Positions 1 to 38,714 of a DNA stretch of 64,000 nucleotides are shown in pieces (within the stretch, counting starts at the first letter, position 1; every line of letters begins with the position of its first letter). Source of the stretch: Cellulophaga lytica DSM 7489 (lineage in GTDB: Bacteria; Bacteroidota; Bacteroidia; Flavobacteriales; Flavobacteriaceae); the NCBI RefSeq assembly GCF_000190595.1, contig NC_015167.1:1167501-1231500 (forward strand). The letters run 5' to 3'. The position numbers were made by a program, and so were the translations under genes. The notes beneath the pieces are model-generated. The model saw only the letters and a list, made by a program, of their open reading frames with translations, had not been told where the DNA came from and did no database searches.

Positions 1-1164
<1,164 letters not shown>

Positions 1165-35503: not shown

Positions 35504-36646
35504 ATGTCAACATTAGACAATACATCGCTTAAATTACCAAAAGAAAATTTAGAAGCAGAAGACTTTTTACCATTATTAGGAACAGACTATGTAGAACTTT
35601 ATGTAGGTAATGCAAAACAAGCAGCACATTATTATATGTCTGCATGGGGTTTTCAGCCACTAGCATACGCTGGCCTAGAAACTGGTTTAAAAGACCGTGT
35701 ATCTTACGTAATAGAACAAGGTAAAATTAGGTTAGTACTAACCTCTCCTTTAAATTCTGGAGGAGATATAAACAGGCATATTGACGCTCATGGAGATGGC
35801 GTAAAAACAGTTGCCCTTTGGGTAGATGATGCTACAAAAAGTTATAAAGAAACAACTAGCAGAGGTGCAGAAAGTTATTTTGAACCAAAAAAAGAAGAAG
35901 ATGAAAACGGAGAAGTTGTTTTCTCTGGAATACATACTTATGGTGAAACTGTACACGTTTTTGTAGAAAGAAGCAATTACAAAGGTATATTTTTACCAGG
36001 TTATAAAGCTTGGAACCCACATTATAAGCCTGCAGATACCGGCTTAAAATACATAGATCATATGGTAGGTAATGTAGGGTGGAATGAGATGAACAAATGG
36101 TGTGAGTTTTATGCTAAAGTAATGGGGTTTGCACAGCTTGTTTCTTTTGATGATAAAGACATATCTACAGAATACACTGCTCTAATGAGTAAGGTTATGA
36201 GTAACGGTAATGGCCGTATTAAATTTCCAATTAACGAACCTGCGGAAGGAAGAAAAAAATCTCAGATTGAAGAGTACATAGATTTTTATAACGGAGCAGG
36301 TGTACAACATATGGCATTAGCTACAGATAACATTATAGAAACTGTAACTGCATTAAGAGATCGTGGCGTAGAATTTTTAACTGTTCCTAGCTCTTATTAC
36401 GAAGATGTTTTAGACAGAGTTGGTGAAATTGATGAGGACTTAGCACCTTTAAAAGAACTAGGCATTTTAATAGATAAAGATGATGAAGGCTACTTATTAC
36501 AAATATTTACGAAGCCTATTTTAGACAGACCAACAATGTTTATAGAAATTATACAAAGAAAAGGCGCAAAGTCTTTTGGTAAAGGAAACTTTAAAGCGCT
36601 ATTTGAAGCCATAGAAAGAGAGCAAGAATCTAGAGGAACCCTTTAA
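35504..36646 (+). CDS. hppD: 4-hydroxyphenylpyruvate dioxygenase
   Basis: Non-heme iron enzyme that turns 4-hydroxyphenylpyruvate into homogentisate in tyrosine breakdown. The 380-residue protein has two vicinal-oxygen-chelate domains: the N-terminal LGTDYVELYVGNAKQAAHYY and the catalytic C-terminal half starting near YIDHMVGNVGWNEMNKWCEF. The first iron histidine is in IDHMVGNV, the second in GAGVQHMALATDNI and the glutamate in MFIEIIQRKGAKSFGKGNF. Tryptophan 2,3-dioxygenase is encoded 1.1 kb downstream, so this area handles aromatic amino acid catabolism. Confidence 0.96.
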   Translation: MSTLDNTSLKLPKENLEAEDFLPLLGTDYVELYVGNAKQAAHYYMSAWGFQPLAYAGLETGLKDRVSYVIEQGKIRLVLTSPLNSGGDINRHIDAHGDGVKTVALWVDDATKSYKETTSRGAESYFEPKKEEDENGEVVFSGIHTYGETVHVFVERSNYKGIFLPGYKAWNPHYKPADTGLKYIDHMVGNVGWNEMNKWCEFYAKVMGFAQLVSFDDKDISTEYTALMSKVMSNGNGRIKFPINEPAEGRKKSQIEEYIDFYNGAGVQHMALATDNIIETVTALRDRGVEFLTVPSSYYEDVLDRVGEIDEDLAPLKELGILIDKDDEGYLLQIFTKPILDRPTMFIEIIQRKGAKSFGKGNFKALFEAIEREQESRGTL

Positions 36647-36736
36647 CAAAACCGCTATATTATTATGAATGCAGTAATTTTTGCATTTAAAAGCTAAAGT
36701 AGTGTTAACACTTTAGTTAAAGTAAGTTAAAACCAA

Positions 36737-36766
36737 TTATTACTCTGAATTAATGTAGTACTTTTG
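36737..36766 (+). promoter_or_regulatory. Promoter of the candidate small RNA
   Basis: TTA (36737-36739), a 19-base gap and TACTTTTG (36759-36766) match the Bacteroidota promoter with one -33 mismatch. The predicted start, about 36,771, coincides with the 5' edge of the first RNA hairpin. Confidence 0.6.
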
Positions 36767-36770
36767 ACGG

Positions 36771-36875
36771 CATAAGGGGTGGTTCCCTTATTAACTTTAA
36801 GTATTGGTTTTTCATAATTTAAAGTTTGGTTGGTTATTTAGGAAAAGCCCAGTTTTAAGACTGGGCTTTTTTTTA
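36771..36875 (+). ncRNA. Candidate three-hairpin small RNA (about 105 nt)
   Basis: Hairpin 1 is ATAAGGG / CCCTTAT with loop GTGGTT (36772-36791). Hairpin 2 pairs AACTTTAA (36793-36800) with TTAAAGTT (36819-36826) over an 18-base loop. Hairpin 3 is a perfect 10-base terminator stem (36843-36852 with 36861-36870) with a T-run. A well-formed promoter ends just before hairpin 1. The layout is that of an independent small RNA between hppD and a DUF3108 gene. It might belong to a described flavobacterial RNA class such as Flavo-1, but I cannot confirm that by eye. It lacks the GGAA-loop signature of SRP RNA. Confidence 0.6.
36843..36875 (+). terminator. Terminator of the candidate small RNA
   Basis: AAAAGCCCAG / CTGGGCTTTT, loop TTTTAAGA, then a continuing T-run to about 36874. 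It is separated from the hppD stop by nearly 200 bases, so it fits the small RNA better than hppD. Confidence 0.9.
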
Positions 36876-36962
36876 TGCAATACTTTGGAACAAAAATTGT
36901 TTAAATAATTGTAAAGACATTTAATTGTATTTTCAATTTTAGTAATTTTACATCATAACGAT

Positions 36963-37742
36963 ATGAAAAAAGTATACATAACCCTTTTATTACTAGCAAC
37001 TTTTTCTGCTAACTCCCAAAATACGCACAGTGCGTTTAAAGCAGGAGAATGGCTACGCTTTAGAATTCATTACGGAATTTTTAATGCTAGTTACGCCACA
37101 CTACAAGTTAAAAATGACAAAATAGACAACAAATCTGTTTACCACGTTGTTGGCAAAGGAAGAACCACAGGTTTAGCACGTGTATTTTTTAAAGTAGATG
37201 ATACTTACGAGAGCTATTTTGACAAAAATAATGGCAAACCCTATAAATTTGTTAGAAAAGTAAGTGAAGGTAGCTACACCTTAGATTTAGATATAGATTT
37301 TGATTATAAAAACAAAAAAGCTACTCTAAACGATCATAAAAAAGATAGAAAGTTAGACTTTTCTATAGATCATAAAATACAAGACTTAATATCTGCTTTT
37401 TACTATCTTAGAAACAACTATAAACCAGAAGATTTAAAAAAAGGGGAATTTGTTGTTTTAAATTTACTTTATGATGATGATGGTATTTTTAAGTTTAAAC
37501 TTAAATATTTAGGAAAAGAAACTTTAAAAACTAAATACGGTAAAGTAGAATGTCATAAATTTAGACCCTACGTAGAGTCTGGTCGTGTTTTTAAAGAACA
37601 AGAAAGCTTATCACTATGGGTTTCTAATGATGACAATAGAATTCCTATTAGAATAAAAGCAGACCTAGCTGTTGGCTCTATAAAGGCAGACCTAGATGGT
37701 TATGCCGGATTAAAGCATCAGTTTAAAATAATAATGGACTAA
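36963..37742 (+). CDS. DUF3108 domain exported protein
   Basis: A 259-residue protein with a signal peptide (ending near SANSQ) followed by a single beta-rich DUF3108 domain: FKAGEWLRFRIHYGIFNASYATLQV near the start and YGKVECHKFRPYVESGRVF in the second half. Function of this periplasmic family is unknown. The tryptophan 2,3-dioxygenase gene starts 6 bases after its stop, so they are likely cotranscribed, which does not by itself indicate shared function. Confidence 0.82.
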   Translation: MKKVYITLLLLATFSANSQNTHSAFKAGEWLRFRIHYGIFNASYATLQVKNDKIDNKSVYHVVGKGRTTGLARVFFKVDDTYESYFDKNNGKPYKFVRKVSEGSYTLDLDIDFDYKNKKATLNDHKKDRKLDFSIDHKIQDLISAFYYLRNNYKPEDLKKGEFVVLNLLYDDDGIFKFKLKYLGKETLKTKYGKVECHKFRPYVESGRVFKEQESLSLWVSNDDNRIPIRIKADLAVGSIKADLDGYAGLKHQFKIIMD

Positions 37743-37748
37743 CATTTA

Positions 37749-38714
37749 ATGGACAATAAAGAAAAGATAGCGTCTCAAATTTTAAAATTAGAAGAAAAAT
37801 ACAAAGGATCTGGACAAGATTTAAGCTCATACCTAGATGGGTTACTTTATGAAAAATACCTTACCTATTGGGATTATATTCATTTAGACACGCTTTTAAG
37901 TTTACAAATACCAAGAACACATTTTCCGGATGAGGAAATTTTTATAATGTATCATCAAATAACGGAATTGTACTTTAAGTTAATTTTACATGAGCAAAAG
38001 CAAATTGTAGATGACAAATCTCAAGATGTTGATTTTTTTATAGAAAAGGCCAATAGAATAAACAGCTATTTTAAAGTTCTTATATCTTCATTTAGTATTA
38101 TGATTAATGGTATGGATAGAGAGCAATTTTTAAAATACAGAATGGCGCTATTGCCAGCTAGTGGTTTTCAGTCTGCACAATACAGAATGATAGAACTTTA
38201 TGCTGCTCCTTTAGAGAACTTAGTTCATAAAACAAAAAGAGAACAGTACTCATCAGAAAACAGTATTGAAGAACTTTATGAAGAAATTTACTGGAAAAAC
38301 GGAGCTACAGACAAAGATACCGGAGAAAAAACACTAACACTTAAACAATTTGAGTACAGGTACACACCGCGTTTAATACGTATTGCCAACCAAGTAAAAG
38401 ACAATACAATTTATCACAAATACCTTGCCTTGCCTAAAAAAAGTCAAGAAAACAAGGAGTTAATAAGCGCATTAAAAGCATTAGATATAAATGCAAATGT
38501 AAATTGGCCACTAATGCATATGGGCTCTGCTTACAAATATTTAGCTAAAGATAAAGAAGCTATAGATGCTACCGGAGGAACCAATTGGAAACAATATTTA
38601 CCTCCAAGTTTTCAAAAAGTAGTGTTTTTCCCTTATTTATATACAAAAGAAGAGTTAAATAATTGGGGAAAAGAATGGATAGACCATATCTTTAACCCCG
38701 AAAAATCTAAATAA
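37749..38714 (+). CDS. Tryptophan 2,3-dioxygenase family protein
   Basis: Heme enzyme that opens the indole ring of tryptophan to N-formylkynurenine. The 321-residue protein shows MYHQITELYFKLILHEQ, where canonical members have HQxYELWFKQ, the LLPASGFQSAQYR segment, and the C-terminal heme-ligand region (WPLMHMGSAYKYL, then DATGGTNWKQYLPP). It is divergent from proteobacterial KynA but the key segments are kept. Its stop overlaps the next ATG by one base. With hppD nearby, it suggests aromatic amino acid degradation. Confidence 0.88.
   Translation: MDNKEKIASQILKLEEKYKGSGQDLSSYLDGLLYEKYLTYWDYIHLDTLLSLQIPRTHFPDEEIFIMYHQITELYFKLILHEQKQIVDDKSQDVDFFIEKANRINSYFKVLISSFSIMINGMDREQFLKYRMALLPASGFQSAQYRMIELYAAPLENLVHKTKREQYSSENSIEELYEEIYWKNGATDKDTGEKTLTLKQFEYRYTPRLIRIANQVKDNTIYHKYLALPKKSQENKELISALKALDINANVNWPLMHMGSAYKYLAKDKEAIDATGGTNWKQYLPPSFQKVVFFPYLYTKEELNNWGKEWIDHIFNPEKSK

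Follow-up and report, generated by a model that had tools for sequence, protein, structure and literature searches.

Most Bacteroidota lack Hfq, and post-transcriptional control in the phylum, which is mostly Hfq-free, is poorly known. According to a report on Flavobacterium psychrophilum, 85 new RNAs were mapped in this species, of which Rfp11, Rfp13, Rfp15 and Rfp18 are structured and conserved (PMC9723704). The same report states that the loss of Rfp18 lowers the levels of two metalloprotease mRNAs and that a sigma-54 regulon of chaperones and surface functions includes the RNA Rfp36, and it gives expression profiles over 32 conditions.

In this work, a small RNA gene of Cellulophaga lytica DSM 7489 was analysed within a window of 64,000 nucleotides (the whole stretch of DNA under study). 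It lies in a 316-base gap between an HPPD-like dioxygenase gene and a DUF3108 gene (Table 1), and it is almost certainly a real small RNA gene of family-wide occurrence. The RNA folds into three hairpins at -36.6 kcal/mol, compared with a shuffled mean of -20.5 (z -4.79), and none of 200 shuffles reached an energy as low. Within hairpin 2, a 3-bp inner helix is possible. Of the GGUU words, one is in loop 1, two are in the linker, and a further one lies in loop 2 in the window's class. Conservation, covariation, and a conserved promoter and upstream element all support the original prediction of a new small RNA equipped with a promoter and terminator of its own. Independent transcription is predicted from the -7 box and upstream element, which are conserved at a fixed distance, and from the Rho-independent terminator. 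The proposed promoter (TTA, 19 bases and a -7 box), stem 1 (ATAAGGG-GTGGTT-CCCTTAT) and terminator were all recovered at this locus. Hairpin 2 is likewise present, and its stem is longer than the 8 pairs originally given. Bacteroidota promoters usually carry TTG as the -33 element, and the TTA of this locus is a weak one. A simple promoter and terminator scan missed both this type of promoter and the 36843 terminator, and the terminator-like site that it did list is the stem-1 hairpin. No open reading frame of at least 60 aa overlaps the RNA on either strand, in agreement with the earlier view that it has no coding frame. A 12-codon GTG frame is found at 36779-36817; a peptide-coding reading was rejected because this frame is disrupted by 1-base length changes in other species.

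Table 1. Features of the small RNA gene and its neighbours in the window.
Feature	Position	Strand	Basis
Upstream neighbour hppD, HPPD-like dioxygenase (Glyoxalase domains, HPPD N-terminal domain)	35504-36646	+	Pfam
Upstream element TGTTAA-N6-AGTTAAAGT-NN-GTTAAAAC, direct repeats	36703-36733	+	alignment; conserved among loci
Bacteroidota sigma-A promoter: TTA (36737-36739), 19-base spacer, -7 box TACTTTTG (36759-36766)	36737-36766	+	sequence and conserved box
Small RNA gene, about 104 nt	36771-36874	+	5' end predicted from sequence; fold and conservation
Hairpin 1: 7-bp stem ATAAGGG/CCCTTAT (36772-36778 / 36785-36791), loop GUGGUU (36779-36784)	36772-36791	+	
Hairpin 2: stem AACTTTAAGT/ATTTAAAGTT (36793-36802 / 36817-36826)	36793-36826	+	fold
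UUUUUCAUAAUUUA in hairpin 2 loop and 3' arm, antisense to start-codon regions	36808-36821	+	
Linker UUGGUUGGUUA, exposed, second candidate seed	36826-36836	+	invariant or nearly invariant columns, 40 rows
Intrinsic terminator AAAAGCCCAGU-loop-ACUGGGCUUUU(U)n	36843-36874	+	sequence, fold, alignment
Downstream neighbour, DUF3108 protein	36963-37742	+	Pfam; synteny conserved
Following gene, tryptophan 2,3-dioxygenase	37749-38714	+	Pfam

The RNA is unmatched by the public RNA-family library: when the window and 31 related loci were searched with the covariance models of Rfam 15, no family passed its gathering cutoff at the RNA. With permissive settings over 36600-37000 (401 bases), the lowest E value was that of RsaF (0.0029; 27.0 of 60 bits), which covered the terminator and the DNA after it, and such sub-threshold matches are chance-like. 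Membership of Flavo-1 (RF01705), a class found in flavobacteria and raised at the outset as a possible home for this RNA, was rejected, since its model matches the RNA neither in the window nor at the 31 related loci. The Flavo-1 model matches elsewhere in one of these loci (L084, 3108-3188), about 1.3 kb from the RNA there, which indicates that the model works on such DNA. A literature search of partial coverage found no paper describing the RNA by sequence.

The distribution of the RNA was followed with several kinds of search. A DNA search of 60 genomes with 36720-36885 as the query detected the RNA in all 18 Cellulophaga genomes (the own genome and 17 others) and in three further genera of the family at E < 1e-30. 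The tally of this search was 59/60 genomes, most matches beyond those genera being short and weak; one weak match, in G024, lies at the same locus and is a diverged homolog. In many alignment rows the edges of the conserved core lie close to the predicted transcript ends, and the flanks diverge. With a first covariance model (R1), 171 of 299 family genomes had a match at E <= 0.01. The weak end of this list is mixed, as the GUGGU hairpin was present in 9 and absent in 11 of the 20 weaker matches that were read, several of them second matches in one genome. A second model (R2), built on 40 diverse sequences, matched 144 of the 150 genomes of one genus (g147, the genus holding G167), including 124/124 of those with completeness of 90% or more and contamination of 5% or less. 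Since G167 carries an RNA of the same type as named Flavobacterium contigs, we take this genus to be Flavobacterium. When 296 genomes were drawn from the whole order, R2 gave a match at E <= 0.001 in 38, of which 37 belong to the Flavobacteriaceae and one lies outside (G364, E 5.6e-4). The one second R2 match in the own genome reads as the end of a coding sequence with a terminator.

Named carriers were collected by a pattern scan that made no use of the stems and gave at least 119 stretches; 80 loci were listed from it, 24 being set aside as chance and 56 retained. Among the matches listed, the carriers are Arenibacter, Maribacter, Allomuricauda, Zobellia, Kriegella, Robiginitalea, Croceitalea, Galbibacter, Kordia, Flavobacterium, Paenimyroides, Lacinutrix, Algibacter, Tamlana, Formosa and Bizionia, in addition to Cellulophaga itself. 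Taken together, the RNA has very probably been kept at one chromosomal spot over much of the Flavobacteriaceae, in marine and freshwater bacteria. A Bacteroidota RNA as conserved as this one provides a handle by which a core regulon might be revealed in tractable flavobacteria.

The structure of stem 1 is under selection, and the case for stem 2 is weaker. In 40 diverse sequences outside the sigma-54 class described below, two-sided changes occur at 7/7 pairs of stem 1 (88% of cells paired) and at 2/6 pairs of stem 2 (81% paired). The homologs with compensatory stem changes that the original prediction called for were thus found, and the absence of homologs with preserved stems, which would have spoken against it, does not apply. 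For both stems together, cells with two-sided changes numbered 68 against a shuffled mean of 22 (0/500 shuffles as high), and pairs with such changes 9 against 7.0 (36/500 as high). When the partner was slid by 1 to 3 columns, the paired cells of the two stems fell from 85% to 65% or less. In a subset of 51 distinct 26-mers that had been gathered independently of structure, stem 1 was paired in 88% compared with 69% after shuffling (largest 73%), with 67 two-sided changes compared with 20 (largest 31; 500 shuffles each). The terminator is kept with altered stem sequences in relatives, and one of its pairs is altered on both sides in three genomes close to that of the window.

The exposed parts are constant while the stem sequences vary. 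In the 40 diverse rows, the columns GTGGT, TTTCATAA and GTT.GTTA are invariant, as are GUGGU and most of GUUGGUUA when read in the RNA, and the linker columns are invariant or nearly so. Of 143 copies, themselves collected by means of this loop word, 128 have GTGGTT in loop 1, 11 have GTGGTG and 4 have GTGGTA. The invariance is partly by construction, because the words GTGGT, CAT and GGTTGGTTA were among those used in collecting the sequences; the near-identity of four genera in the plain DNA search is free of that bias. Furthermore, the 5' arm of hairpin 2 varies and its 3' arm and loop are invariant, therefore the 3' arm and loop are probably held for more than pairing within the stem.

All pairing rules taken together, it is probable that the RNA acts by base pairing. 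As judged from these sequence features, a regulated, independently transcribed sRNA that acts in trans and blocks start regions is the reading we favour with some confidence. We hypothesize that the sigma-A promoter, activated through the upstream site, would give an RNA of about 104 nt that ends at its own terminator and exposes three constant parts, namely loop 1 (GUGGUU), the UUUUUCAUAA of hairpin 2 and the linker UUGGUUGGUUA. UUUUUCAUAA would pair over start codons of the UUAUGAAAAA type, which exported and membrane proteins often have, and GUGGUU and UUGGUUGGUUA would pair with AACCAC and AACCAACC just upstream of the start. Such pairing would block ribosome binding, and the genes affected would be those starting UUAUGAAAA or preceded by AACCAACC. 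A bolder version, which we hold only tentatively, describes an ancient, family-wide anti-start-codon RNA whose loop complements the commonest start context UUAUGAAAAA and tunes many exported proteins. Equally tentative is its evolutionary part, in which the RNA is under sigma-A activator control in most genera and was re-homed under sigma-54 with tandem amplification elsewhere.

The start regions of 1042 predicted genes from 1.26 Mb of the own genome were used to evaluate this pairing. The hairpin-2 loop has UAUGAAAAA as its complement. This word is found in 64/1042 start regions and, with 57 occurrences in register, ranks first among start contexts, ahead of AATGAAAAA with 49. The exposed UUUUUCAUAA is antisense to this commonest context, as counted in a third of the own genome. 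Shuffled controls overstate the UAUGAAAAA match because every start region has AUG, and the start-codon match could be trivial. A hydrophobic N-terminus is found in 53/72 genes starting TATGAAAAA/C compared with 325/970 others (p 3e-11). With another base before ATGAAAAA/C the share is as high (48/69), so the effect is due to the MKK/MKN start and not to the preceding base.

Further indications come from words complementary to the linker and to loop 1, which are over-represented close to starts. In the 28 bases before starts of the own genome, ACCAACC occurs 8 times with 1.1 expected and CAACCAC 7 times with 0.9 expected. Among the 70 A4C4 octamers, each of the top five either complements the linker or includes AACCAC, a post hoc result with overlapping words and counts of 4 to 6. 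Linker partners at -16 kcal/mol or lower were found in 22 start regions, compared with a mean of 8.5 and a largest value of 18 for 25 shuffled linkers. Plain TTGGTTNGTTA counts in the own genome (51) are barely above those of the reversed pattern (41). The excess of AACC words is absent in 338 genes of one genome (G629) of the genus taken as Flavobacterium, where each word occurs 0 times with 0.26 and 0.18 expected, a comparison that is underpowered. The original proposal that TTGGTT-like words serve as contact sites is plausible for the linker, because its words are among the constant unpaired parts; the TTGGTT of loop 2 is not kept outside the window's class.

The same constant words allow another reading, in which the repeated GGUU in hairpin loop and single strands captures an RNA-binding protein. 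RNAs of the CsrB type capture CsrA, whose word is GGA. By analogy with these, the four GGUU positions and the invariance of GUGGU and most of GUUGGUUA are consistent with titration; however, the loop-2 GGUU is missing in other classes and GGA occurs only once in the RNA, so we consider protein capture unlikely. Quite improbable, too, is a trans-acting sRNA with a different pairing rule, for example activation of targets or pairing by hairpin 3. Its model would be Rfp18, which is reported to be needed for normal levels of the two metalloprotease mRNAs and whose third stem-loop is the predicted pairing site (PMC9723704), but the terminator stem sequence of the RNA described here varies, unlike a seed.

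A general 3'-end module, in which GGUUGGUUA before terminators would be a genome-wide chaperone site, was also considered and rejected. Among 240 predicted terminators from 1.26 Mb of the own genome, only 2 have GGTT[AG]GTTA within 30 bases upstream, these being the RNA itself and an Hsp20 gene. At the 3' end of this Hsp20 gene (Pfam HSP20; G000:C1:101489-101499, L242), TTGGTTGGTTA stands shortly before the terminator. GGTT/GTTA-type repeats also precede a terminator in four other family genomes (L221, L223, L226 and L235), after genes that by eye resemble Hsp20, with TTTTTCATAAT in two of them. It is possible that the Hsp20-associated tails are 3'UTR-derived relatives of the RNA. In addition, a shared tail of GGTTGGTTAG plus terminator stands after what by eye seems to be one protein gene in two family genomes (L228 and L239).

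Returning to the favoured reading, that the RNA blocks start regions in trans, four candidate targets were checked by ortholog in 28 genomes of 27 genera with a closely similar RNA. Two of them were dropped: galE pairs at -20.9 kcal/mol in the own genome, at -6.4 in another Cellulophaga genome (G007) and at -14 or lower in 5/26 others, and the acyl-CoA dehydrogenase gene pairs at -18.6 in the own genome and at -14 or lower in 3/23 others evaluated, 4/28 having no start to evaluate. The orthologs of amt reached the cutoff in 8/28 genomes, and this gene is uninformative as a target. The exbB leader is markedly conserved in 28/28 genomes, and its pairing energy with the linker ranges from -11.5 to -18.8 kcal/mol; this is only modestly better than for 100 shuffled linkers, with p values from 0 to 0.22 for the 28 leaders. 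In 24 further genomes of other classes, paired with their own linkers, p ranged from 0.01 to 0.36 (100 shuffles each), and the exbB query had no match at cutoff in 6/6 genomes of the genus taken as Flavobacterium. The evidence for exbB is inconclusive, and the gene is a lead rather than a proven target. In most of the 52 genomes read (L359-L386, L483-L506), the short exbB leader (TATCTTTAACCCTATTAACTAAC...) shows strong conservation, beyond what pairing with the RNA explains.

Outside the sigma-54 class, 110/118 RNA loci have hppD upstream and/or DUF3108 downstream, and the 8 exceptions are three dispersed copies in one genome (G063), tandem copies of the Kordia type, and loci near contig ends. 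Two loci of the Kordia type (L076 and L112) each contain two DUF805b RNA motifs (RF02914) within about 1.5 kb of the tandem RNA pair. At the edge of the window a partial 16S rRNA gene is present (1-1163, minus strand).

The promoter divides the loci into two groups. Of the 116 loci not in the sigma-54 class, 115 carry an TANNTTTG-like box, in most cases at positions -20 to -28 relative to the loop, and 1 carries a sigma-54-like site. In the sigma-54 class (class C), a sigma-54-like GGYA-TTG site is present in 23/24 loci at -53 to -61, and an TANNTTTG-like word occurs somewhere in the 90 bases in 8/24. Similarly, a GTTAAA-type word lies within 120 bases upstream of the loop in 110/115 loci outside class C, mostly at -62 to -65 and/or -52 to -55, compared with 8/24 class-C loci at scattered positions. 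The upstream element is a probable activator site, to judge from its sequence and placement. The exact element GTTAAAGTNNGTTAAA was found once in each of three Cellulophaga genomes, once in G018 and twice in G254. It was rejected as a regulon mark, since one-mismatch counts in five genomes were 40 compared with 48 for the reversed pattern, and no regulon was found.

None of 25 class-C loci is next to hppD or DUF3108; these copies adjoin DUF819, alpha/beta hydrolase, 2OG-Fe(II) oxygenase or other genes. Tandem copies occur among them: Lacinutrix algicola (L171) has four, Lacinutrix sp. (L148) has two and G321 (L077) has three. Class C is taken as homologous and not convergent because of its R1 scores (best E about 3e-8 to 2e-7) and the shared order of parts. 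One genome (G183) holds both a sigma-A-type RNA (L070) and a sigma-54-driven relative without hairpin 1 (L220), so the mutual exclusion of the two versions is not absolute. This relative, a small RNA candidate at L220:1570-1654, has TTTCATA and TTGGTTGGTTAGTT before its terminator. A shorter relative of another shape was noted in G019 (L227:1483-1560), where a sigma-54-like site is followed directly by an GGGGGUGGUUUCC hairpin and a terminator.

The DUF3108 locus was inspected in 20 genomes, 17 of them with a sigma-54-driven copy or relative seen elsewhere, two (G108 and G283) chosen on kinship or score with the match unread, and one (G127) of the sigma-A type. The DUF3108 gene was present in all 20, and G127 was the only genome where R1 and R2 found the RNA at this locus. 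For the remaining 19, the top R2 matches had E values of 0.047 or worse, some of them over a terminator-like tail, and an GTTGGTTA word in one locus (L471) had no hairpins or terminator beside it. Judged by pattern only, a terminator-like tail is present in 13 of these 19 RNA-less loci (L454-L472), and in 11 an TANNTTTG box follows within 40 bases. In several of them, the tail is much like the terminator of the Flavobacterium RNA, as if the rest had been excised. It seems that, in a group of genera, the function has been transferred to new loci under sigma-54. Sigma-54 control of the moved copies would fit a role in a stress or envelope response. This apparent switch of promoter type and locus, with the old site empty, would be a clear case of an sRNA re-wired to another sigma factor.

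These loci also bear on the idea of a cis-acting leader or attenuator of the DUF3108-tdo genes. The RNA is upstream of DUF3108 in most loci, and the highest-scoring sub-threshold Rfam match was to the PyrR leader model (27.4 bits, cutoff 54, E 0.079). However, a full terminator stands 88 bases ahead of the DUF3108 start, the gene is retained in the 19 RNA-less genomes with the promoter-like TANNTTTG past the tail in 11 of them, and both the sigma-54 copies and the three dispersed G063 copies sit elsewhere, which makes a leader very unlikely. Hardly tenable is the reading of the element as no more than the end of hppD, a terminator region or 3' UTR kept as DNA or as the tail of the mRNA: the RNA lies next downstream of hppD on the same strand and the terminator-like tail is near the spot in 13/19 RNA-less genomes, but there is a separate promoter at fixed distance with a conserved upstream element, stem 1 covaries, and in RNA-less genomes the RNA part is gone and the tail stays.

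By description, the RNA resembles Rfp18, Rfp13 and Rfp15, which are reported as conserved, strongly structured and independently transcribed in the same bacterial family (PMC9723704). Because the RNA is present in 124/124 of the good genomes of the genus taken as Flavobacterium, F. psychrophilum probably has it, and the RNA may be one of the published Rfp RNAs. Rfp11 has an SM6 (ECF-type) promoter according to the same study (PMC9723704), unlike the RNA described here, which speaks against identity with Rfp11. Rfp18 is predicted to pair by its third stem-loop (PMC9723704), whereas the third hairpin here is the terminator and is variable. RybB and MicA of enterobacteria, in which an envelope-stress sRNA blocks the start regions of envelope-protein mRNAs, provide an analogy only. 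The window copy has a sigma-A promoter and so differs from the Qrr sRNAs of vibrios; it is the class-C relatives, with their sigma-54 promoters and tandem copies, that are like Qrr in these two respects.
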